From assembly GCF_013032005.1 (NCBI RefSeq), contig NZ_WQBE01000002.1, positions 186,001-250,000 on the forward strand: DNA of 64,000 nt. The letters run 5' to 3'. This DNA is from Ruegeria atlantica. Its GTDB lineage: Bacteria; Pseudomonadota; Alphaproteobacteria; Rhodobacterales; Rhodobacteraceae. Position 1 is the first letter of the stretch, and each line of letters opens with the position of its first letter. Positions 3,283 through 39,843 of this stretch are shown piece after piece. The notes under the pieces are model-generated. The model was not told where the DNA came from. It saw only the letters and a list, made by a program, of their open reading frames with translations, and did not search any database. The position numbers and the translations under genes are program-made.

Positions 3283-4209
3283 ATGAATACCGCCCTTTTG
3301 ACTCATGCGGATTGTCTGGAGCATGTCACCCCGGATGGGCACCCTGAGCGGGTGGCCCGGCTGGAGCATATTCTGCATGCGTTGGAGTCATTGGACCTGA
3401 ACCGGGTGACTGCGCCACTGGCGGCGGATGACGATCTGCTGCGCATACATCCGGAAAGCTACATCCGGGATGTGCGCAAAATGCGCCCCGCGGAGGGCTT
3501 TGCCCAGATCGACGGGGACACGTTCATGTCTCCGGGCTCGGTCGATGCGGCCTATCGCGCGGCGGGGGCTGTGGTGCGGGCGGTGGATATGGTGCTGGGC
3601 GGTGAGGCACAAAATGCGTTTTGTGCGATCCGGCCTCCGGGGCATCACGCCGAGACTGACACCGCGATGGGTTTTTGCTTGTTCGGCAATGCCGCGCTGG
3701 CGGCAAAACATGCGCTGGATCACCACGGGCTGAACCGCGTCGCAGTGGTTGATTTTGACGTGCATCACGGCAATGGCACGCAGGATTTGCTGTGGGATGA
3801 GAAACGCGCACTTGTGATCACCAGCCAGCAGATGCCGTTGTGGCCCGGATCGGGGCGTCCGGATGAAACCGGCGCGTATGAGACCATTCTCAACATCCCC
3901 CTGTCCCCCGGTTCCGGCGGGGCCGAGATGCGTGCGGCCTATGAAACACAGGCGTTCCCGCGCCTGCGCGCCTTCAAGCCGGACCTGATCATCATCTCGG
4001 CTGGATTTGACGCGCATCAGGACGATCCATTGGCCAATCTGAACTGGTCCACAGGTGACTTTGCCTGGGTCACCGCGGAGCTTTGCAAAATAGCCGATGA
4101 GCTTTGCGGGGGACGTATCGTCTCGACTCTGGAAGGCGGGTATGATCTGAACGCACTGGCCCAGGCCACACGCGCCCATGTGGATGAATTGATGAAGGCA
4201 GCCCGATGA
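3283..4209 (+). CDS. Histone deacetylase family hydrolase
   Basis: 308-aa zinc amidohydrolase of the arginase/deacetylase superfamily (acetylpolyamine amidohydrolase/AcuC group). Visible motifs: RPPGHH at 117-122, the metal ligands Asp159 and His161 in DFDVHHGNGT, Asp243 in SAGFDAHQDDPL and the catalytic Tyr287 in EGGYDL. It should remove acyl groups from lysines or polyamines; the true substrate cannot be told from sequence. It overlaps xseB by 4 bases and opens the HDAC-xseB-ispA-dxs operon, an arrangement I know from many alphaproteobacteria. Start ATG at 3283 has GGGGAT just upstream. Confidence 0.9.
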   Translation: MNTALLTHADCLEHVTPDGHPERVARLEHILHALESLDLNRVTAPLAADDDLLRIHPESYIRDVRKMRPAEGFAQIDGDTFMSPGSVDAAYRAAGAVVRAVDMVLGGEAQNAFCAIRPPGHHAETDTAMGFCLFGNAALAAKHALDHHGLNRVAVVDFDVHHGNGTQDLLWDEKRALVITSQQMPLWPGSGRPDETGAYETILNIPLSPGSGGAEMRAAYETQAFPRLRAFKPDLIIISAGFDAHQDDPLANLNWSTGDFAWVTAELCKIADELCGGRIVSTLEGGYDLNALAQATRAHVDELMKAAR

Positions 4210-29279: not shown

Positions 29280-30500
29280 CTATTCGTAAACGCGCTGATC
29301 CTCGATCACCAACCCGTCCTTGGGCAGCGAACCGGGGGCCACAACCTCAATCGCGCCTTTCAGTTTCAGCACTTCAATTACGGATTTGGCATAGGTCACG
29401 TCATCGTCGCGTGGACTTTCGATCTGAACGGTCATCGTGTCCATTTCCCCCTGTCGCGCGGCGATGACACGGGCTTTGACGATCTCTGAATGTTTGTCGA
29501 CCAGCGCGGCCACCTGTTCAGGACGCACGAACATGCCTTTGATCTTGGTGGTCTGATCGGCCCGTCCCATCCAACCCTTGATACGCAGGTTGGTGCGGCC
29601 ACAAGGCGATTGTCCGGGCATGATCGCGGACATATCACCGGTGGCAAACCGGATCAGCGGATAATCTGGGTTTAGCGAGGTCACCACGACCTCACCCACC
29701 TCACCCGTTGCAACCGGGGTGCCTGTGCCGGGCGTGACGATTTCGACAATCACATGCTCGTCGATGATCATTCCCTCCATCGCGTGGCTTTCATAGGCGA
29801 TATTGCCCAGATCGGCGGTGGCATAACATTGCAGACAGGAAATACCCCGGTCGGCATAATCCTGACGCAGCGATGGGAACAGTGCGCCACCACCCACCAC
29901 GGCAGAAGAAAAGTTCAGCTCCACGCCCATCTCATCCGCTTTGTCCAGAATGACCTTCAGGTAATCCGGAGTACCCGCATAAGACGTACACCCCACATCA
30001 CGCGCCGCAGTGACCTGCAGCTCGGTCTGGCCGGTACCGGCGGGCAGCACAGCGGCCCCAACAGCCCGCGCACCACTTTCAAAAATCATCCCAGCCGGGG
30101 TCAGGTGATAGCCAAAACAGTTATGGACGATATCGCCGGGTCCTACGCCTGCCGCATGCAGGAACCGGCCCATGCGCCACCAATCGGGATCAGTGCTGCC
30201 GGGCTCATAAATCGGGCCCGGGGACTGGAAAACATGGTGAAAATGCCGCGCCGGTGTGACCGTGAACCCACCAAACGGCGGCCGCGCCGCCTGTGCCTGC
30301 GCCAGTTCAGATTTGCGCAGCACTGGCAGTTTCACCAGATCCTCGGCCGAGGCAACAGCACTGCAATCAACCCCTGCCAGATGCGCCGCAAAACCGGGCG
30401 CGGACAACGCCCGCTGAATTTGAACACGCAGCGCCTGCGCCTGATCGGCAGCGCGCTCGTCGGCTGAACGGGTCTCGAGCGCGTCGTAGTAATTCGTCAT
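29280..30500 (-). CDS. PaaK-like acyl/aryl-CoA ligase (AMP-forming)
   Basis: 406-aa ANL-superfamily enzyme of the phenylacetate-CoA ligase group. Seen: VFQSPGPIYEPGS (a variant of the Ser/Thr/Gly P-loop), CYATADLGNIAYES (adenine-binding), FATGDMSAIM with Asp, and the C-terminal GRADQTTKIKGMFVRPEQV hinge. It should activate a carboxylic acid to its CoA thioester. Start 30500 follows GGAGGATCTGGTC. It is the last gene of the Liv-type array, 19 bases after livF, which implies that the imported acid is its substrate. The substrate is unknown; PaaK itself is slightly longer. Confidence 0.85.
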   Translation of the reverse strand: MTNYYDALETRSADERAADQAQALRVQIQRALSAPGFAAHLAGVDCSAVASAEDLVKLPVLRKSELAQAQAARPPFGGFTVTPARHFHHVFQSPGPIYEPGSTDPDWWRMGRFLHAAGVGPGDIVHNCFGYHLTPAGMIFESGARAVGAAVLPAGTGQTELQVTAARDVGCTSYAGTPDYLKVILDKADEMGVELNFSSAVVGGGALFPSLRQDYADRGISCLQCYATADLGNIAYESHAMEGMIIDEHVIVEIVTPGTGTPVATGEVGEVVVTSLNPDYPLIRFATGDMSAIMPGQSPCGRTNLRIKGWMGRADQTTKIKGMFVRPEQVAALVDKHSEIVKARVIAARQGEMDTMTVQIESPRDDDVTYAKSVIEVLKLKGAIEVVAPGSLPKDGLVIEDQRVYE

Positions 30501-30519
30501 GACCAGATCCTCCATCCGC

Positions 30520-31353
30520 TTACAGCCACCTTTTGCGGCGGCGGTATGAGCGCACGTCACGGAAGCTTTTGCGCCCCTCGTCGGACATGCCCAGATAAAA
30601 CTCTTTCACATCCGGGTTTTCGCGTAGATCGGCCGCCGGGCCGTCCATCACAACACGCCCCGATTCCAGAATGTATCCGTAATGTGCAAACCGCAGCGCC
30701 ACATTGGTGTTCTGTTCGGCCAGCAGGAAGGACACGCCCTCTTTCTCGTTCAAATCCTTAACGATGCCGAAAATCTCTTCGACCAGCTGCGGCGCAAGAC
30801 CCATCGAAGGCTCATCCAGCAGGATCGTTTCTGGGCGCGACATCAAAGCCCGACCCATCGCCACCATCTGCTGTTCCCCGCCCGAGGTATAGCCCGCCTG
30901 CGACCGGCGCCGTTCTGCGAGACGCGGGAAATAGGAATACACAAGTTCAAGATCCTGCTGGATCGCCGCGTTGCCATCCTTGCGAGTATAGGCCCCGGTC
31001 AGCAGATTTTCCTCGACCGTCAGGTGTTCAAAGCAATGGCGGCCTTCCATCACCTGAATGACGCCCTTTTCCACCAGATCGGCCGGATCGCTTTCATGCA
31101 CGCTGGTGCCGCGATAGGTGATCGTACCCTTGGTGACCTCGCCCCGTTCGGACTGCAGCAGGTTCGACACCGCCTTGAGCGTCGTGGTCTTGCCCGCCCC
31201 GTTGCCGCCCAGCAAGGCGGTGATCCCACCCTTGGGCACGGTCAGGCTGACGCCCTTCAGCACAAGAATGACGTGGTTGTAGATCACCTCGATATTGTTG
31301 ACCTCCAACAGGGTTTCGGCCTGTACATCGGTGGTTTGTGCCGCATCCAGCAT
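30520..31353 (-). CDS. livF: Branched-chain/organic-acid ABC transporter ATPase (LivF type)
   Basis: 277 aa. Walker A GGNGAGKTTTLKAV, signature segment SGGEQQMVAMGRAL (YTSGGEQQ), Walker B ILLDEPSMGLAP and the LivF feature EEIFGIVKDL. It powers the LivHM-type permease with LivG. ATG 31353 has GGGAG at proper spacing; the TTG at 31359 is disfavoured. The stop of the patatin-like gene lies 2 bases before. The tail after residue 245 is longer than in E. coli LivF and is basic. Confidence 0.92.
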   Translation of the reverse strand: MLDAAQTTDVQAETLLEVNNIEVIYNHVILVLKGVSLTVPKGGITALLGGNGAGKTTTLKAVSNLLQSERGEVTKGTITYRGTSVHESDPADLVEKGVIQVMEGRHCFEHLTVEENLLTGAYTRKDGNAAIQQDLELVYSYFPRLAERRRSQAGYTSGGEQQMVAMGRALMSRPETILLDEPSMGLAPQLVEEIFGIVKDLNEKEGVSFLLAEQNTNVALRFAHYGYILESGRVVMDGPAADLRENPDVKEFYLGMSDEGRKSFRDVRSYRRRKRWL

Positions 31354-31355
31354 CG

Positions 31356-32585
31356 TCAACTCCCGTAGATTTCGTTGATCTTGCGCTCCAACTCAGCCGC
31401 GGTCAGCCACGGGATGGGTTGAGAGCTTGTCATGTTCTTCCCCGCCTCGAACAAGGCCCCGGTGATACATTTGTCAAAAAGGGGTTCGGGGTTCTTGCAA
31501 TTGAGCGCGGGCAGTTCAGGCGCAACCAATGCCTTAAAGGTCCAAGAGGGGTTCTGTTTCACAACGCGAAGGGTTCGGTCGATCGACTCGCGAAATCCCT
31601 GATCGGTGACCAGTTGGAAATTCCGGCCTGCCAACGCGAGGATACCGGGTCCTGGGTCCTTTTCCGCGACAACCAGGTCACCGTTCACCAGCAAAGTTAC
31701 CCGAACGTCAAATTGTTGGCCTGTGCGCTGCGTAGCTGTTTGCTGACCTTTAGCCAGGCCTTCCAGAAACACATGCTGGCGCACACCTGCATCCGCGTAT
31801 AGGTCCCCATTGATCTTGCGAGGCGGGAACAGAACCGGAATGGCCGAGCTGGCCAGAACCGCCTCGGACACGCAATCCTCTTTTGTCGCGAAATCATCTG
31901 GGGTGGTGGCCAGATACTGACCGATATCCATGATGTCGAACCGCCCGGTTTTCAGATTGACCGCGCCGACCACCACGCTGTTGACCTCTTGCCCGGATTG
32001 GCCCGGGTCGGCCCGCTTGGCGATACGATCCAGCAGAGGTTCGTCAATTTCACTTTCGACCAGCCGTTTCAGCTTTTTGGTGCTGAAGACAGAACTGGCC
32101 AAAGGAATCGGTGGCACGATTTGCAGCGACAGCACATCGTTCAAATTGATCCTGGTATTGGATTTCAGGCGCGCGTCAAACGCCGATCCCGCAAATGCCA
32201 GAGGGGTAATCAACGCCCCGGCGCTGGCCCCGGTCACGACGTTGAAGTCTGGCCTGCCGTTTTCTGTCCAGCCCGTCAGAACGCCTGATGAGAAGGCACC
32301 ATATTGCCCACCGGTGGTCATAGCCAGAATTTCGACGGGAATGCCCCGCCCATCGCGGTCAAGGTCTGCACGTTGCGCGGCCTGACCTTCGAACACCCGG
32401 GCAAACAGATCCGCAGTCGCATCCACATTCGGCGCTGAGCTGCGCCCGACAACGGATTTCGCCGGAACAAAATCTCGGACAAGCCCGGTGCAGGTCGGCC
32501 CGTCGATCTCGGGCGCGCTGCACGCAGCAAGCCCAAGTACCGCACTCAGCACTATCCCTGTTCTTATCCGGAGAAACTCCAGCAT
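31356..32585 (-). CDS. Patatin-like phospholipase, predicted lipoprotein
   Basis: 409 aa. A lipobox LGLAAC near residue 22 predicts lipidation. The patatin core is visible: TTGGQYGAFSSGVLTGW (oxyanion glycines), the nucleophile Ser in VVTGASAGALITPL, and DAGVRQHVF replacing the usual DGG near 270. It should hydrolyse acyl esters at the cell envelope. Its place between the binding protein and livF of a transport operon is unusual and suggests that it releases the acid that the system imports. AGGA precedes ATG 32585. Expression is probably lowered by the hairpin just upstream. Confidence 0.83.
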   Translation of the reverse strand: MLEFLRIRTGIVLSAVLGLAACSAPEIDGPTCTGLVRDFVPAKSVVGRSSAPNVDATADLFARVFEGQAAQRADLDRDGRGIPVEILAMTTGGQYGAFSSGVLTGWTENGRPDFNVVTGASAGALITPLAFAGSAFDARLKSNTRINLNDVLSLQIVPPIPLASSVFSTKKLKRLVESEIDEPLLDRIAKRADPGQSGQEVNSVVVGAVNLKTGRFDIMDIGQYLATTPDDFATKEDCVSEAVLASSAIPVLFPPRKINGDLYADAGVRQHVFLEGLAKGQQTATQRTGQQFDVRVTLLVNGDLVVAEKDPGPGILALAGRNFQLVTDQGFRESIDRTLRVVKQNPSWTFKALVAPELPALNCKNPEPLFDKCITGALFEAGKNMTSSQPIPWLTAAELERKINEIYGS

Positions 32586-32610
32586 CACCGCCTGTCCTTG
32601 TTTGGGGGTT

Positions 32611-32650: not shown

Positions 32651-33934
32651 TTAGTTGCAGCGCCCCTCGAGGTTGTTTTCCGACGCGTAAGCTGCGGAAT
32701 CCTCGTCGATAAGCGCACCGATCACGTCACCATCTGTTGGTTTGAAGTCAGAAATCAGCGACCAGGTCTTGTTCGCCGCGTCCCACTGCGTCACACCAAC
32801 CAGAGCGTCGCCGCCGTGGTTTTTGCACGAGACCGAGAAGGTCGGACCAAAGTTCGGCAGGCCCAGCTCAGCCATTTTCTCTTCGGTCATTTCAAGCGCT
32901 TCCATACCGTCACGCATGTCAGCCGGAGTGATTTCGGCATTGCCCGAAAGCTCTTGTGCTTTCTTAATGGCTTCTGCAGCCAGCACCGCAGCGTAAAGGC
33001 CACGGTTATACAGTACCGTCCCAACCTGATCGCCTGCACCGGCAGCCTTGCCAGAATCGACCACATATTGTTGCAGGTCAGCAAAGACCGGGAAATCCGT
33101 GCCCACATTGTGGAAGGTCAGCGCCTTGTAGCCATTCGCGGCCTCACCCGCAGGCACAACGTCATTTTCCGAGCCGGACCACCAGATACCGATGAAATTC
33201 TCCATCGGGAAGCGGATGTTCGCGGCTTCCTGTACCGCAACCTGGTTCATGACGCCCCAGCCCCACATCAAGACATAGTCAGGACGGTCGCGGCGGATCT
33301 GCAGCCATTGCGATTTCTGCTCTTGACCGGGGTGATCAACCGGTAGGGCCGCGAGCTCAAAGCCGTGCTTCTTGGACAGTTCTTCCAGCGTGCGGATCGG
33401 CTCCTTGCCGTAGGCCGAATTGTGGTAGACAAGAGCAATTTTCTTGCCGCTCAGATCGCCACCGTTTTCTTCCAACAGATAGTTGATCGCACCTGAGGCC
33501 CCGTCCCAATAGTTGGCCGGATAGTTGAACGTATGGCTAAAAACGTCGCCATTCTTAGCCGAAGTCCGGCCATATCCCATCGTGTGCAGCGGGATATTGT
33601 CCGCGGTCACTTTTGGAATCAACTGATAGGTGATGCCCGTCGAGAGCGGTTGATACACCAACGCGCCTTCGCCCTTGGTTGATTCGTAGCACTCAACCCC
33701 TTTTTCGGTGTTGTAGCCGGTTTCGCATTCGACCACGCGGATCGGCACGCCGCCAATGCCGCCATCCCGTTCGTTCAACAGGGTGAAATAGTCGTTATAC
33801 CCGTCCGAAAACGGAATGCCGCCAGCTGCATAGGGCCCAGTCCGGTAGCTGAGATCAGGGATTACCAAATCCGCCAGAGCCGGTCCTGCGGCCATCAGGG
33901 CGCCAAGCGCCGCGGTTGCCAGTGTCAATTTCAT
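32651..33934 (-). CDS. ABC transporter substrate-binding protein (Liv/urea-type)
   Basis: 427 aa. Signal peptide MKLTLATAALGALMAAGPALA with a cleavage site after ALA, then a type I periplasmic binding fold (Peripla_BP_6). It holds GGIGGVPIRVVECETGYNTEKGV in the family position, and Cys residues that may form disulfides (about 69/76, and two near the C-terminus). It captures the ligand for LivH/LivM. Sequence does not give the ligand; two CoA ligases in the operon favour a carboxylic acid over an amino acid. GGAGGAG stands before ATG 33934; the longer frame to 34081 is rejected. Confidence 0.9.
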   Translation of the reverse strand: MKLTLATAALGALMAAGPALADLVIPDLSYRTGPYAAGGIPFSDGYNDYFTLLNERDGGIGGVPIRVVECETGYNTEKGVECYESTKGEGALVYQPLSTGITYQLIPKVTADNIPLHTMGYGRTSAKNGDVFSHTFNYPANYWDGASGAINYLLEENGGDLSGKKIALVYHNSAYGKEPIRTLEELSKKHGFELAALPVDHPGQEQKSQWLQIRRDRPDYVLMWGWGVMNQVAVQEAANIRFPMENFIGIWWSGSENDVVPAGEAANGYKALTFHNVGTDFPVFADLQQYVVDSGKAAGAGDQVGTVLYNRGLYAAVLAAEAIKKAQELSGNAEITPADMRDGMEALEMTEEKMAELGLPNFGPTFSVSCKNHGGDALVGVTQWDAANKTWSLISDFKPTDGDVIGALIDEDSAAYASENNLEGRCN

Positions 33935-34007
33935 CGGGTGTCTCCTCCCTTGGTTGGTCCGATGTTGGGGTCGGGCTTTGCACCCGTTATCTGATTGGGC
34001 CTGCCCC

Positions 34008-35084
34008 TTAGTGCGGGAACGGCCAGAGTCTGAGTTTCTCTTTCGCCACGCGCCAAAGCTGCGCCAGACCGTGTGGCTCAAGGATCAGGAACATGATGAT
34101 CAGCGCGCCGACAATCACCAGCTGCAGATGCGCCACAATATCGGTGGGCCAGCCCAGCCAATCGGCGCCAACAACTTTCAGCACCACGGGCAGCAACACC
34201 AGAAACGCAGCGCCCGCAAAGGATCCGAAAATAGACCCTAACCCGCCAATAATGATCATGAACAGCACCAGAAATGATTTCTGAATGCCAAAGACCTCAC
34301 CCACTTCGACAGCGCCCAAATAGACGGCAAAGAACAGCGCCCCGGCGATGCCCACAAAGAACGAGCTGACGGCAAAAGCGGTCAGTTTCGCCTTCAGCGG
34401 GTTCACCCCGATGATCTCGGCGGCGATATCCATGTCGCGGATCGCCATCCAGCTGCGCCCCGTGGTGCCACGCGTCAGGTTGCGCGCAATGATCGCGCTG
34501 ACCGACAGGAAGATCAGGCAGAACAGATAGGTGGCCCAGGCCGGTGCATTCGGGCCGGTGATGATGATGCCGAACACGTCACGCTCGGGCGCGTTGATCT
34601 GGCCCGAAGCGGAATAGTTGTAGAACCACGGTACGCGGTTGAAAAGCCAGACCAGAAAGAACTGCGCGGCCAGGGTTGCCACCGCCAGATAGAACCCCTT
34701 GATCCGCAGGCTTGGCAGGCCGAACAGCACGCCGACAATGGCGGTGATCCCGCCCGCCAGAATGACATGTATGAACATGCTGACATCCGGGAACGCGGTC
34801 ATCAGCTTGTAGCAGGCATAGGCCCCCACGGCCATGAACCCCCCGGTGCCCAAGCTGACCTGACCGCAATAGCCCACCAGAATGTTCAACCCGATCGCTG
34901 CAATCGCGTAGATCAGAAACGGCAACAGCAACGCATTGGCCCAGTAATCATTGATGAGGAACGGAATAATCCCAAAGGCCACGGCCAGCACGACATAGTA
35001 CCGATACCGGTCGAACTTGATCGGAAAGGTCTGGTTGTCATCGATGTAGGAGGTTTTGAAATCCCCGGCCTCACGGTAGAACAT
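34008..35084 (-). CDS. livM: ABC transporter permease, LivM type
   Basis: 358-aa inner-membrane protein with about 9-10 hydrophobic segments. LivM markers: GLNILVGYCGQVSLGTGGFMAVGAYA, SLRIKGFYLAVATLAAQ, and the EAA-like loop GINPLKAKLTAFAVSSFFVG (here GVNPLK). GGGAG precedes its ATG. It works with LivH in the membrane. It starts 3 bases after the stop of a small membrane protein gene that, unusually, splits livH from livM. Confidence 0.92.
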   Translation of the reverse strand: MFYREAGDFKTSYIDDNQTFPIKFDRYRYYVVLAVAFGIIPFLINDYWANALLLPFLIYAIAAIGLNILVGYCGQVSLGTGGFMAVGAYACYKLMTAFPDVSMFIHVILAGGITAIVGVLFGLPSLRIKGFYLAVATLAAQFFLVWLFNRVPWFYNYSASGQINAPERDVFGIIITGPNAPAWATYLFCLIFLSVSAIIARNLTRGTTGRSWMAIRDMDIAAEIIGVNPLKAKLTAFAVSSFFVGIAGALFFAVYLGAVEVGEVFGIQKSFLVLFMIIIGGLGSIFGSFAGAAFLVLLPVVLKVVGADWLGWPTDIVAHLQLVIVGALIIMFLILEPHGLAQLWRVAKEKLRLWPFPH

Positions 35085-35087
35085 AAC

Positions 35088-35345
35088 TTACTTCTCCCAC
35101 TCTTCCTGTGCCCGGTTACGAGCCTCGGCATCCAGTTGGTTTGTGCCCTTGGCGTATCCGCTCGCCTCGGAGTTGCGCACCAGTTTCATGTAGGCCAGAA
35201 CGCCCGTGATCAGCCCGGCAAAAGCCAGTATCGCGGCCACGACCAGCTGGCTTTCGGTCAGATCTTCCGAGGTGACGGCGATATAGCCAAAGGCCCAGAA
35301 CCCTGCCCATGCGATGACGTTGATGATGGCGATCAGTTTGGTCAT
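35088..35345 (-). CDS. Small membrane protein between livH and livM (second)
   Basis: 85 aa with two hydrophobic segments (about residues 3-23 and 32-55) and a charged C-terminal tail rich in Glu and Arg. No family recognised. Its ATG overlaps the stop of the preceding small gene (ATGA), and livM follows 3 bases later, so it is clearly translated in the operon. It could be an accessory subunit that stabilises the permease, as small proteins do in other transporters; that is inference. Confidence 0.75.
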   Translation of the reverse strand: MTKLIAIINVIAWAGFWAFGYIAVTSEDLTESQLVVAAILAFAGLITGVLAYMKLVRNSEASGYAKGTNQLDAEARNRAQEEWEK

Positions 35346-35596
35346 GCAGCGACCCCGCGGCTTTTGACGTTCAGCCAATGCACCACAGCAGCAAAAGCTG
35401 CGTAGAAGAACAGCGAGTCCAAGGCTCGCAGATAGCTCACAATGAGCAACATCCTCATCTCCCACGCTGTATCGCCAGGCATCGCTATGCTTGAACCAGA
35501 CAGGTTGAGTTCAAAGCAGTCACCAAGTGACCGCGCGAACCCATAGGCCAGCAATGCAATTGGCAACGTTTTGAAGAGGGGTTCCAGCTTATCCAT
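35342..35596 (-). CDS. Small membrane protein between livH and livM (first)
   Basis: 84 aa, with hydrophobic stretches near residues 8-22 and 48-75. No family recognised. It begins directly after the livH stop and overlaps the next small gene by 4 bases. The tight packing argues that it is a genuine gene and part of the transporter or its assembly. Confidence 0.72.
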   Translation of the reverse strand: MDKLEPLFKTLPIALLAYGFARSLGDCFELNLSGSSIAMPGDTAWEMRMLLIVSYLRALDSLFFYAAFAAVVHWLNVKSRGVAA

Positions 35597-36583
35597 CTAT
35601 ACTCTCTCGATAATTTTCTCACCGAAGAGACCTTGCGGACGAAACACCAGGAAGACCAACGCCAAAACGTAAGCGAACCAGTTCTCAGTCGCGCCGCCGA
35701 CCAGCGGGCCGACGGCGAACTCGAACAGTTTCTCACCCACACCGATTATCAACCCGCCGACAATGGCACCTGGGATCGAGGTAAACCCGCCCAGCATCAG
35801 CACCGGCAGCGCCTTGAGCGCGATCAGCGACAGCGAGAACTGCACGCCCGACTTGGTGCCCCACATGATGCCCGCGACCAGCGCCACGAACCCAGCCACC
35901 GACCAGACCATGATCCAGATGAAGTTCAGCGAGATGCCAACCGACAGTGCTGCCTGATGGTCATCGGCCACTGCACGCATGGCCCGGCCCTGTTTGGTGT
36001 ACTGGCTGAACGCCACCAAGGCCGCCACCAGCAGCGCCGCAATCACGGTCGCCACGATGTCCAGATTGTCGAGGAAGAAGCCATAACCGAAGATGTTAAA
36101 GGTGCTCTCATCAATCCACAGATTGATGCCCTGCGGCAGGCCCACATCCAGCGTCTTGATCTCGGACCCCCACATCAGGTCGGCCACACCTTCAAGGAAA
36201 TAGGCCAGCCCGATGGTGGCCATGAACAGGATGATCGGCTCTTGCCCTACCAGATGACGCATGACGAACCGCTGTACCGCCCAGGCCAGCAATACCATGA
36301 CACCCATGGTCAAAAGGATCGCCACAAAAGCGGGCACATTCCACCCGAAGGTATGAACATGCGTGCCAAAAGTTGCATTTATCACATGCGCAAAGGGCAC
36401 CTGCCCGTTCATGACCCCGACCAGCGTCATCGCCGCAAACAGCGCCATAACGCCTTGGGCATAATTGAAAATCCCCGAAGCTTTGTAGATCAGAACAAAG
36501 CCCAGCGCGACCAACGCATAGAGCACCCCGGCCATCAGACCGTTGAGGATGACCTCCATCGCGAATACGAGTTGTTCAGGCAT
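35597..36583 (-). CDS. livH: ABC transporter permease, LivH type
   Basis: 328 aa, about 8 hydrophobic segments. LivH markers: NGLMAGVLYALVALGFVLIYKASGIFNYAQGVMALF at the N-terminus (quoted in parts as NGLMAGVLYALVALG and GIFNYAQGVMALF), RAMRAVADDHQAALSVGI (EAA-like loop) and PGAIVGGLIIGVGEKL. Forms the channel with LivM. It follows livG by 29 bases and is contiguous with the two small membrane protein genes. Confidence 0.92.
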   Translation of the reverse strand: MPEQLVFAMEVILNGLMAGVLYALVALGFVLIYKASGIFNYAQGVMALFAAMTLVGVMNGQVPFAHVINATFGTHVHTFGWNVPAFVAILLTMGVMVLLAWAVQRFVMRHLVGQEPIILFMATIGLAYFLEGVADLMWGSEIKTLDVGLPQGINLWIDESTFNIFGYGFFLDNLDIVATVIAALLVAALVAFSQYTKQGRAMRAVADDHQAALSVGISLNFIWIMVWSVAGFVALVAGIMWGTKSGVQFSLSLIALKALPVLMLGGFTSIPGAIVGGLIIGVGEKLFEFAVGPLVGGATENWFAYVLALVFLVFRPQGLFGEKIIERV

Positions 36584-36612: not shown

Positions 36613-37431
36613 TCAGTCATGACTGACCCCCAGATAGGCGTCGATGACGTCCTGATTGCTGCGCACCTCATCCGGGGTGCCGTCGCCGATTTTTTTTCCG
36701 TAATCCATCACGACCACGCGGTCGCTCAGGTCCATCACCACGCCCATATCGTGTTCGATCAAGGCAATGGTGGTGCCGAATTCGTCATTCACGTCTAGGA
36801 TAAAGCGGCTCATGTCCTCTTTTTCTTCGACATTCATGCCCGCCATCGGCTCATCCAGCAGCAGCAGCCTGGGTTCGGCCGCCAGCGCACGGGCCAGCTC
36901 GACCCGCTTTTTTAACCCGTAAGGTAGGCGCGAGACCGGAGTTTTTCGGATGTGCTGGATTTCCAGAAAATCGATGATCTTCTCCACCGCCTCGCGGTTT
37001 TCCACCTCTTCCGCTTCTGCCTTGCCCTTCCACCAGGCCTGCTGAAAAATGTTGGTCTTCATAAAGTTCAGCCGTCCGGTCATAACGTTGTCCAAAACGC
37101 TCATACCTTCGAACAGAGCGATGTTCTGGAACGTCCGCGCAATGCCTTGCTGCGCGACCTCGAATGGCCGCATCGGTGGGCGCTTGGCCCCGTGAAACCA
37201 GACCTCACCCTCCTGCGGAACATAGAACCCGGAAATCACGTTCAACATCGAGGATTTACCTGCCCCATTCGGCCCGATGATGGCGCGGATCTCACCCTCG
37301 CGAATATCAAACGAGATATCCTTGATTGCCACAACACCGCCAAAACGCAGAGTGATGTTCTTCATCTCCATCACCACGCCGCCGATCTTGCGGCCGTCTT
37401 CGGTGACATATCCTTCGGAACTATCCAGCAT
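36613..37431 (-). CDS. livG: Branched-chain/organic-acid ABC transporter ATPase (LivG type)
   Basis: 272 aa. Walker A GPNGAGKSSMLNVISGFY, the ARTFQNIALFEGMSVLDNVM segment typical of LivG, the VSRLPYGLKKRVELARAL signature region, Walker B LLLDEPMAGMN and switch His in ALIEHDMGVVMDL. The N-terminus (first 20 residues) is longer than in E. coli LivG. It pairs with LivF. It lies 78 bases after the acyl-CoA ligase, inside the same minus-strand array. Confidence 0.93.
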   Translation of the reverse strand: MLDSSEGYVTEDGRKIGGVVMEMKNITLRFGGVVAIKDISFDIREGEIRAIIGPNGAGKSSMLNVISGFYVPQEGEVWFHGAKRPPMRPFEVAQQGIARTFQNIALFEGMSVLDNVMTGRLNFMKTNIFQQAWWKGKAEAEEVENREAVEKIIDFLEIQHIRKTPVSRLPYGLKKRVELARALAAEPRLLLLDEPMAGMNVEEKEDMSRFILDVNDEFGTTIALIEHDMGVVMDLSDRVVVMDYGKKIGDGTPDEVRSNQDVIDAYLGVSHD

Positions 37432-37509: not shown

Positions 37510-39483
37510 TCATTCCGCAGCCACTTTATGTTGAGCGACCGGTACAACCGGCGCATCTACGATCTCAAGCGTCGCGCTGATCGATCCCTTGCGGCCGTCC
37601 TCATAGGTCACTTCCGTTTTGGTCGAGACGGTCTCTGACCCGTCATACAGCGCCGCAATAATGTCGCTGAACTTGTCCTCGACAAACCCGCGCCGCACTT
37701 TCCGCGTGCGGGTCATCTCGCCGTCATCCGCATCCAGTTCCTTGTGTAGAACCACAAAGCGATGCACCTGACAGCCCGACAGCATCTCGTCGGCGGCAAC
37801 AGATTTGTTCACCTCTTCCACATGCGCCTTGATGGTCTCTAACACCTGTGGATTCGCCGTCAGTTCTTGATAAGACCCGTAGGCCACGTTGTTACGTTCC
37901 GCCCAATTGCCCACTGCTGTCAGGTCGATATTGATAAAGGCCACGCAACGATCCTTGCCGTTTCCGAACAAAACAACTTCAAGGATGTCAGGATAGAATT
38001 TCAGCTTGTTCTCGACGTATTTCGGCGCAAACATCGACCCGTCGGCCATCTTGCCCACATCCTTTGCGCGGTCAATTATCCGCAAATGTCCTGAGTTCTC
38101 TTCGATGAAACCGGCATCGCCAGTGGCAACCCATCCCTCGGCATCTTTGGTCGAGGCCGTGGAATCCGGGTTTTTGAAATACTCAACAAAAACACCGGGC
38201 GAGCGATAGTGAATTTCTCCCTTGTCATCGATCTTCAACTCGACATCCGGCGCAGGCACACCAACCGTATCCGCGCGTACTTCGCCGTCCGGTTGCACGG
38301 TGATGAACACGGTGGCCTCGGTCTGGCCGTAGAGCTGTTTCAGATTGATGCCAAGGGATCGGTAGAAATCGAAAATCTCGGGCCCGATGGCCTCACCCGC
38401 CGTATAGCCCACCCGGAACCGACCATAACCCAGCGTATCCTTCAGCGGGCCGTAGACCAGCAGATTGCCCAGCGCGTATTTCAACTTATCACCGAGGCCC
38501 ACGGGTTTGCCATCCAGCAGCAAACCTCCGACCTTCTTGGCATGCGCCATGAAGTGATGGAACATGCGCTGCTTCAGCTTGCCCGCATCCTCCATCCGGA
38601 TCATCACGTTGGTCAGCTGTGTTTCGAACACGCGCGGCGGGGCGAAGAAATAGGTCGGTCCGATCTCGCGTAGATCGGTCATCATCGTATCGGCACTTTC
38701 GGGGCAGTTCACGCAGAACCCGCACCAATAGGCCTGACCGATGGAAAAGATAAAATCGCCTACCCAGGCCATCGGCAGGTAGGACAGGATATCCTCGCTC
38801 TGGGTAAGATGATCGAACTCGGCTGAATTCTTGGCGCTTTCGATGACGTTGCGGTTCGACAACACCACGCCCTTGGGCTTGCCGGTAGTGCCCGAGGTAT
38901 AGAGCATCACGCAGGTATCGTCATAAGTGATCGCAGCGATGCGCTTGTCCAGTTCCGCATCGAACCGGGCGTGACCGGCACGGCCTTCGGCCATGATATC
39001 ATCCAGCGCATTCATCTGGGAATGGTCGTATTTCCGCATCCCCCGCTTGTCGGTATAAAGGATGTGTTTGACCTGGTGCAGGTTTTCCTGAATCTCGATG
39101 ACCTTATCGACCTGCTCTTGGTCCCCGCAGACGACGTATTTTGCACCGCAATGTTCCAGCACATAGGCCATCTCTTCGGCCACCGCGTCCTGATATAGTG
39201 GAACCGGAACCGCACCGACCATTTGCGCCGCGACCATCGACCAATAATGCGCCGGGCGGTTGCGACCGATCACAGCAATATGGTCGCCCTTTTCAACACC
39301 TAACTCGAGAAACCCCAACGCGATGGCACGAATTTCCTTAGTCGTCTCAGCCCAGGTCCAGCATTGCCAGATGCCGAATTCTTTCTCTCGATAGGCCGGG
39401 GCGTCCCCGAACTGTGTCGCGTTTCGGTGTAGCAGCGCAGCAAGGGAGTGCATCCCCTCGGCGCCCGACTGCGTCTGAGCCAA
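37510..39483 (-). CDS. Long-chain acyl-CoA synthetase-type AMP ligase
   Basis: About 657 aa, ANL superfamily. P-loop MLYTSGTTGKPKGVVLSNRN near 200, YGQTEATVFITV, TGDAGFIEENSGHLRIIDRAKDV, and a late Lys region. Overall it is closest to FadD15/bubblegum-type synthetases, which activate fatty or aromatic acids to CoA esters. A TTG at 39483 is directly preceded by GGAGGAGAGGAAGA, so I prefer it over ATG 39453 (MHSLAALLHR). It is the first gene of the ligase-Liv-ligase array, and its substrate is probably the imported compound or its acyl product. Confidence 0.87.
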   Translation of the reverse strand: MAQTQSGAEGMHSLAALLHRNATQFGDAPAYREKEFGIWQCWTWAETTKEIRAIALGFLELGVEKGDHIAVIGRNRPAHYWSMVAAQMVGAVPVPLYQDAVAEEMAYVLEHCGAKYVVCGDQEQVDKVIEIQENLHQVKHILYTDKRGMRKYDHSQMNALDDIMAEGRAGHARFDAELDKRIAAITYDDTCVMLYTSGTTGKPKGVVLSNRNVIESAKNSAEFDHLTQSEDILSYLPMAWVGDFIFSIGQAYWCGFCVNCPESADTMMTDLREIGPTYFFAPPRVFETQLTNVMIRMEDAGKLKQRMFHHFMAHAKKVGGLLLDGKPVGLGDKLKYALGNLLVYGPLKDTLGYGRFRVGYTAGEAIGPEIFDFYRSLGINLKQLYGQTEATVFITVQPDGEVRADTVGVPAPDVELKIDDKGEIHYRSPGVFVEYFKNPDSTASTKDAEGWVATGDAGFIEENSGHLRIIDRAKDVGKMADGSMFAPKYVENKLKFYPDILEVVLFGNGKDRCVAFINIDLTAVGNWAERNNVAYGSYQELTANPQVLETIKAHVEEVNKSVAADEMLSGCQVHRFVVLHKELDADDGEMTRTRKVRRGFVEDKFSDIIAALYDGSETVSTKTEVTYEDGRKGSISATLEIVDAPVVPVAQHKVAAE

Positions 39484-39843
39484 TCTTCCTCTCCTCCACA
39501 TCCGGCCTCTCCCCGGGCCGGAAAAAGCGGACCCGAGGATCAACCCCGGACGCCAACGCCCGATTAAGGGACGCTTGCACGATCAGCGTCAACTTTTTCC
39601 TGATGTTTTCTCAATTCTTACGAATTGTAACAACCAAGACGTGGTGAAACCTGACCGATCTTGGGTGTGGAAATTGCAAACCTAAACCAAACGAACAGAT
39701 AAACAGCCCTGACCTACTATCAAATGCTCTGATCGTCAGGAACGATTTGCCGCCGCAGAAATCGGTCTTGCGGAGGTCTTCTAATGGCTAAATATTCTGG
39801 ATTACCACATAAGATACGGCGCGTTGGGCTCTGGTAAAAAAAT
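39484..39843. other. AT-richer upstream region of the ligase/Liv-type array
   Basis: No gene seen. It contains the palindrome at 39612-39627, several AT-rich patches that may hold the array promoter on the minus strand, and a chance-looking 17-codon frame at 39784-39837. Its base composition is visibly lower in GC than both flanks. Confidence 0.5.
39612..39627. promoter_or_regulatory. CAATTC-N4-GAATTG palindrome, candidate operator
   Basis: A perfect 6-bp arm inverted repeat with a 4-base spacer, about 130 bases before the ligase start. A TetR- or MarR-type regulator could bind it. No regulator gene is adjacent. Confidence 0.35.

Follow-up and report, generated by a model that had tools for sequence, protein, structure and literature searches.

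Two small membrane-protein genes between livH and livM in a ligase-type liv cluster of Ruegeria: a conserved neighbour of livM and a variable occupant of the preceding junction

KdpF is a short hydrophobic protein associated with a larger membrane complex and, like CydX and AcrZ, belongs to a group of such proteins that are mostly single-helix. New small orphan-like genes are also known to be inserted between conserved genes in the course of operon evolution. For liv-type operons the nearest comparison is DUF6867 (PF21741), a small membrane protein of other alphaproteobacterial liv operons, which we detected in 25 of 76 genomes of the class and whose gene came immediately after that of a livF-type ATPase in all 20 loci fetched; the two genomes of the family studied here that were part of this 76-genome search gave no match to it. 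Our literature search found no paper on DUF6867, and among the matches listed for small membrane proteins together with livH and livM there was no relevant one. Passages of two papers describe CydX (PMC4325964) and AcrZ (PMC7267776) as short hydrophobic partners of larger membrane complexes, and a passage of a third describes termination-reinitiation coupling for genes that overlap by ATGA or TGATG (PMC6728339). Passages of a paper on R. pomeroyi list several liv-type genes (PMC9870897), none of which could be tied from those passages to the cluster described below, and the reference-list passages of PMC10130141 contain no liv terms.

The window analysed here is a 64,000-nucleotide stretch of Ruegeria atlantica (NZ_WQBE01000002.1, positions 186,001 to 250,000; coordinates below count from its first letter), whose minus strand carries a liv-type cluster in the order acyl-CoA ligase, livG, livH, small1, small2, livM, binding protein, patatin-like gene, livF and PaaK-like ligase. 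An AMP-forming acyl-CoA ligase (ACS; 37510-39543, from the first possible start) heads the cluster and is followed by the ATPase gene livG (36613-37431) and the permease gene livH (35597-36583, from profile search and sequence). The membrane-protein genes small1 (35342-35596; 84 aa) and small2 (35088-35345; 85 aa) come next, both confirmed on the minus strand exactly at the positions first claimed for them, and lead into the permease gene livM (34008-35084), the gene for a periplasmic substrate-binding protein (32651-34081, from the first possible start), the ATPase gene livF (30520-31359) and the terminal PaaK-like CoA ligase gene (29280-30560). The ATG of small1 abuts the TAG of livH with 0 bases between them, small1 and small2 share an ATGA stop-start overlap read from the sequence (35342-35345), and livM starts with the ATG at 35084 after a gap of 3 bases behind small2; gene lengths, overlap and both junctions were all as the first-pass annotation had described them. 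DUF6867 resembles small1 and small2 in being a small protein (about 105 aa) whose gene lies within a liv-type ABC operon, but it sits after livF whereas the two genes studied here lie between livH and livM, and homology was rejected by hhalign (probability 0.9% with small1 and 0.2% with small2).

That livH adjoins livM in ordinary liv operons, another premise of the first reading, is true in this genome, where four further livH-livM-like pairs are spaced by -4, +4, -4 and +3 bases (the livH partner of the fourth pair was inferred from an ORF and had no search match, and a fifth LivM-like match, a 670-codon open frame without an adjoining livH match, was left out of the count). With such small gaps elsewhere, an insertion between livH and livM is unusual for this genome. 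The nearest named locus is that of R. denitrificans CECT 5091 (L051), whose small2 is 98% identical, the best of the 80 highest-scoring small2 relatives among 398. A check for a link with ligase-type clusters had also been suggested, and all of these best 80 of 398 loci hold small2 within an ACS-livG-livH-small2-livM-livK-livF-PaaK cluster, with the ACS gene itself present in 79 of 80. The patatin-like gene (31356-32588, minus strand) interrupts the junction of the binding-protein gene with livF, which is 1291 nt long in the window; it had no match at the other 80 named loci, and in another genus (L165) a 43% relative comes after the gene for the binding protein.

Small2, a conserved neighbour of livM

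Small2 represents an undescribed protein family of the Rhodobacteraceae, about 85 aa long and new to Pfam and NCBIfam. The first-pass annotation had called both proteins unrecognised, and neither is indeed in either collection. No Pfam-A or NCBIfam family scored above its curated cut-off for small2; the best Pfam match, Anthrone_oxy, reached 18.6 bits where 27.3 are required, DUF4064 also stayed below cut-off, and both were rejected. Fold searches of PDB and BFVD gave 0 matches at E ≤ 0.001, searches of small1 and small2 against plasmids gave no match, and a profile comparison of the two proteins showed no relation between them. The small2 gene was present in 54 of 54 genus genomes, and in 72 (single sequence) or 73 (profile) of 198 family genomes, as one copy per genome except for a weak second match in G105. 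A class-wide profile search returned matches in 5 of 385 genomes, three of them from the window's family, including the genome that carries the window; the remaining two (E 0.001 and 0.008) were marginal, fell inside long open frames and were taken as chance.

The dN/dS of small2 was 0.08-0.20 in all ten pairs among the five small1 carriers, and an alignment of 27 sequences held 18 invariant columns, 12 of them in helix 1, where the motif NV..W.GFWAFGY.A is invariant. Hydrophobic segments had been proposed for both proteins and were recovered in both, with two clear segments in small2 (17-residue Kyte-Doolittle peaks of 2.66 and 1.92) and weaker ones in small1 (1.59 and 1.16). The AlphaFold2 model of small2 (mean pLDDT 90.1) contains helices at 2-25, 31-62 and 73-84, the first two being of membrane length and forming a predicted two-helix hairpin, and the third a short helix in a short amphipathic C-terminal tail. 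Small2 is modelled as a helical hairpin, probably with both termini in the cytoplasm, and its two helices set it apart from the mostly single-helix CydX, KdpF and AcrZ. It would represent a new family of a known kind, the small accessory membrane proteins.

Its linkage to livM is conserved. Among LivM-bearing family genomes 63 of 140 have small2, compared with 10 of 58 LivM-less ones (Fisher p 0.0002, a value that ignores kinship), and in all 63 genomes that hold both, small2 precedes livM on the same strand, with the two matches less than 200 nt apart in 55 and more than 200 nt apart in 8. In the near-locus set (the best 80 of 398 named loci plus the window, 81 in all, many of them close kin) the gap was 6 nt or less in 77 and never 150 nt or more, which makes co-translation with livM likely; the first reading, which had deduced selection for co-translation from the packing, is to that extent supported for small2. 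Small2 is also kept with two permease types, one with LivH about 80-97% and the other about 54% identical to the window's, which would suit a function directed at some general property of the permease. The second cluster version (L138, L140, L142 and others) retains small2; its ligase and its livG and livF are about 70-90% identical, LivH and LivM about 54% and the binding protein about 46%, as though the permease and its binding protein had been replaced together.

Small2 was not found in 77 of the 140 LivM-bearing family genomes, so that the transporter apparently works without it there. Forty of these 77 were fetched and one was cut by a contig end; of the remaining 39 livH-livM junctions, 12 were within 3 nt, 10 had 45-168 nt and 17 had 241 nt or more, and a weak small2-like ORF, shortened in one case, was seen in five. 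Six more of the 77 had livH-livM gaps of 2 to 476 nt with no clear small2. A small2-like gene was found elsewhere in ten family genomes without LivM at E ≤ 1e-85, each at least 98% complete, and these make up 10 of the 73 small2-positive genomes, so small2 does not occur solely with the permease. Seven of nine such solo copies are without the conserved tail, and two (G049 and G080) retain the tail typical of liv-linked copies. LivM-less carriers and the many clusters without small2 together argue that it is not an obligate subunit; small2 looks optional to the transporter and, judged from these sequences, may have a job of its own. By eye, the solo small2-like gene of four LivM-less genomes lies near formate dehydrogenase-like genes (L173:3974-4243; L152, L163 and L169 near position 4000).

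Small1 and the livH-small2 slot

Small1 was found in only 5 of 54 genus genomes (E < 5e-31; all other matches E ≥ 0.06), in 1 of 198 family genomes (its own) and in 4 of the best 80 of 398 named small2 loci, and it is 84 aa long in all five carriers. Its dN/dS was 0.08-0.23 in nine of ten carrier pairs, the tenth being saturated, and with four full-length relatives in the genus this identifies it as a real gene under purifying selection. It had no Pfam hit at E ≤ 1 and no NCBIfam family, and a small1 profile run over 198 family genomes was significant in its own genome alone, with none of the other 197 reaching E < 0.049. The model (pLDDT 66) places helices at 5-34 and 45-81 with low confidence. 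In another genus, the 710-nt livH-livM interval of L284 contains a faint small1-like ORF beside a glyoxalase-like gene (hmmsearch E 0.007 among 267 ORF segments and 0.032 among 1238; 0 of 2000 shuffles scored as well). A 246-nt stretch in L199 that by eye resembles a decayed small1 failed the small1 profile and was rejected.

The alleles of small1 are deeply diverged, with dS of 1.3-2.0 (values that exceed 1 and are rough) compared with 0.2-1.1 for small2, livG, livH and livM. Between L085 and L063, for example, dS is 2.03 for small1 and 0.19-0.33 for small2, livG, livH and livM; most flanking 100-nt bins are 92-99% identical (a first bin, upstream of livH at L085's own insert, was left out), the last 200 nt of livH are 83 and 85% identical, the first two bins of small1 (200 nt) fall to 66%, and the next bin, half small1 and half small2, is at 82%. 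The GC content of small1 is 49-54%, against 57-61% in livH, small2 and livM. Low GC together with deep divergence between sister loci with similar flanks points to exchange. On a quick livG/livH/livM/livF tree the presence of small1 needs at least four changes, and the sister rows L051 (R. denitrificans) and L075 (HKCCD9208) on the flank tree are both without it. L051, the window's nearest relative, has 3 bases where the window has small1, and other near relatives have unrelated genes there, so that small1 fails as a permease subunit on the refuting condition set in the first reading, namely that close relatives have unrelated sequences here. The two genes had been presented as a pair, a description that is not supported: small2 is found in all 54 genus genomes and small1 in five, and their histories differ.

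The livH-small2 junction is the loosest of the operon. Across the 81 near loci it measured 150 nt or more in 17, 6 nt or less in 46 and an intermediate length in 18, compared with none at 150 nt or more for small2-livM and livM-livK and 3, 6, 6 and 9 of 81 (80 for ACS-livG) for the remaining cluster junctions. Of the 17 large slots, five contain small1, two a membrane protein of 61-74 aa, two a protein of the Glyoxalase_6 type, three signal-peptide-like proteins and five antisense genes whose SHOCT or GvpG match is below threshold; near relatives have nothing, a hairpin or at least four kinds of gene other than small1 at this place. In a wider set of 179 different livH-livM intervals from all loci collected, 174 genes were predicted, including small2 in 133 intervals, a glyoxalase-like gene in 10, an antisense gene in 8 and several single small membrane proteins, all of these counts being lower bounds, as the codon score missed 3 of 5 small1 copies and both 61-74 aa genes. 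Inserts of 150 nt or more preceded small2 in 26 of the 133 intervals with a predicted small2 and followed it in 6, none of the latter among the 81 near loci, which places the slot mainly, though not solely, on the livH side. The six later inserts are in L017, L142, L143, L148, L161 and L165, with a related small gene in L142, L148 and L161 and a glyoxalase-like gene in L017 and L165; overall the glyoxalase-like gene stood before small2 in 4 intervals, after it in 2 and without small2 in 4.

Whatever their kind, all 12 same-strand slot genes among the 81 loci overlap the start of small2, nine by ATGA (4 nt) and three by TGATG (1 nt). The small1/small2 overlap is of the type for which termination-reinitiation coupling has been described; unlike the described cases, unrelated slot genes here all overlap one and the same downstream gene. 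Upstream, the 3' end of livH, GAGAGAGTATAG, could serve as the ribosome-binding site of small1. Unlike an ordinary operon insertion, one junction appears here to have been refilled repeatedly with different genes, and more than the operon's other junctions.

Possible roles of small1 and small2

We lean, at slightly better than even confidence, towards small2 as an optional accessory or assembly factor that is co-translated with LivM and small1 as exchangeable cargo. Small2 would be translated together with LivM and would pack against LivH/LivM, where it is predicted to aid assembly, stability or activity without being indispensable. Small1 would stand outside the LivH/LivM machine, a diverged, GC-poorer guest in the livH-small2 slot, whatever benefit it may bring; its start would be served by the end of livH as a ribosome-binding region, and through the ATGA overlap it would pass ribosomes on to small2, keeping translation running from livH. 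The slot itself would be refilled repeatedly by horizontal exchange.

The proposal of the first-pass annotation, in which small1 and small2 both serve the LivHM permease as accessory subunits, would suit the perfect packing on either side, the purifying selection on both genes and the two-helix architecture given for both by model or hydropathy, but we consider it very improbable: 49 of 54 genus genomes gave no match to small1, named loci without it, including the nearest relative, keep an otherwise intact cluster, and unrelated genes, some apparently soluble or secreted, occupy the same position. Conserved linkage to the permease genes is seen for small2 (63 of 63) and not for small1 (5 of 54), so the claim falls for small1; for small2 it is undemonstrated, given the ten LivM-less genomes that keep a small2-like gene and the many clusters without one. 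A more serious alternative, less probable than our favoured one by our estimate and still a sizeable minority reading, is that small2 is a stand-alone small membrane protein unrelated to the transporter and in the operon merely for expression. The small2-like genes of the ten LivM-less genomes, which lie in various places, some by eye near formate or saccharopine dehydrogenase-like genes, speak for it, as do the single copy per genome (barring G105) and the many clusters in which small2 was not found. Its enrichment with LivM (again disregarding kinship), its position upstream of livM in all 63 genomes with both, the lack of the conserved tail in seven of nine solo copies and the rarer interruption of the livM side than of the livH side (0 compared with 17 of 81, and 6 compared with 26 of 133) argue the other way.

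For small1, an ancestral origin in the genus or beyond, followed by many losses rather than repeated gains, would account for the shared slot, the constant 84 aa, the deep dS between alleles and the faint relative in L284; we think it somewhat unlikely, since the GC of small1 is below that of its flanks, sister loci with similar flanks diverge deeply in small1 itself, and none of the 197 further family genomes yields a profile match at E < 0.049. It is also conceivable, though to our minds quite improbable, that the livH-livM junction is an exchange slot for interchangeable accessory modules around a small2 anchor coupled to LivM. The modules would be small membrane proteins, periplasmic proteins and a glyoxalase-like enzyme, docked mostly just before small2 by ATGA or TGATG overlap and recombining between livH and small2, and close strains would then fit the same importer with different accessories.

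On our favoured reading, of small2 as an optional partner of LivM beside an exchangeable small1, tight packing is no proof of shared function, as equally packed neighbours can be an old conserved gene (small2) and a changing guest (small1). Small2 is a conserved family in a widespread marine group, tied to a liv-type importer, and the slot offers a testable case of operon remodelling in which varied small genes enter a constant operon with the stop-start overlap preserved, a striking sort of remodelling and probably not an unprecedented one.

Hairpin spacers and other junctions

Some livH-small2 or livH-livM spacers share a recurring two-stem hairpin that carries the motif CGANNCCCGCCCNCCCG, for example at L104:4422-4500. 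The exact motif occurred in 20 of 299 loci, from about 13 different genomes, and a close form, CGACNCCCGCCCNCCCG, had 0 matches in the window at up to two mismatches. Compensatory change was seen in 4 of 12 predicted pairs among 10 hand-picked sequences, with a covariation term of -0.31, and the hairpin spacers of six loci had no Rfam match. Such a spacer may act on mRNA processing or stability.

Other junctions of the cluster also hold additional genes at some loci. The livG-livH junction of L064, L065, L076, L085, L095 and L113 (6 of 81) contains a same-strand ORF of 184-220 aa, most of these having an apparent signal peptide by eye and four of the six ending in a PEEC- or QGEC-type cysteine motif. 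The livF-PaaK junction of L096 and L098 carries antisense genes of 277-282 aa that, by eye, are related to each other.
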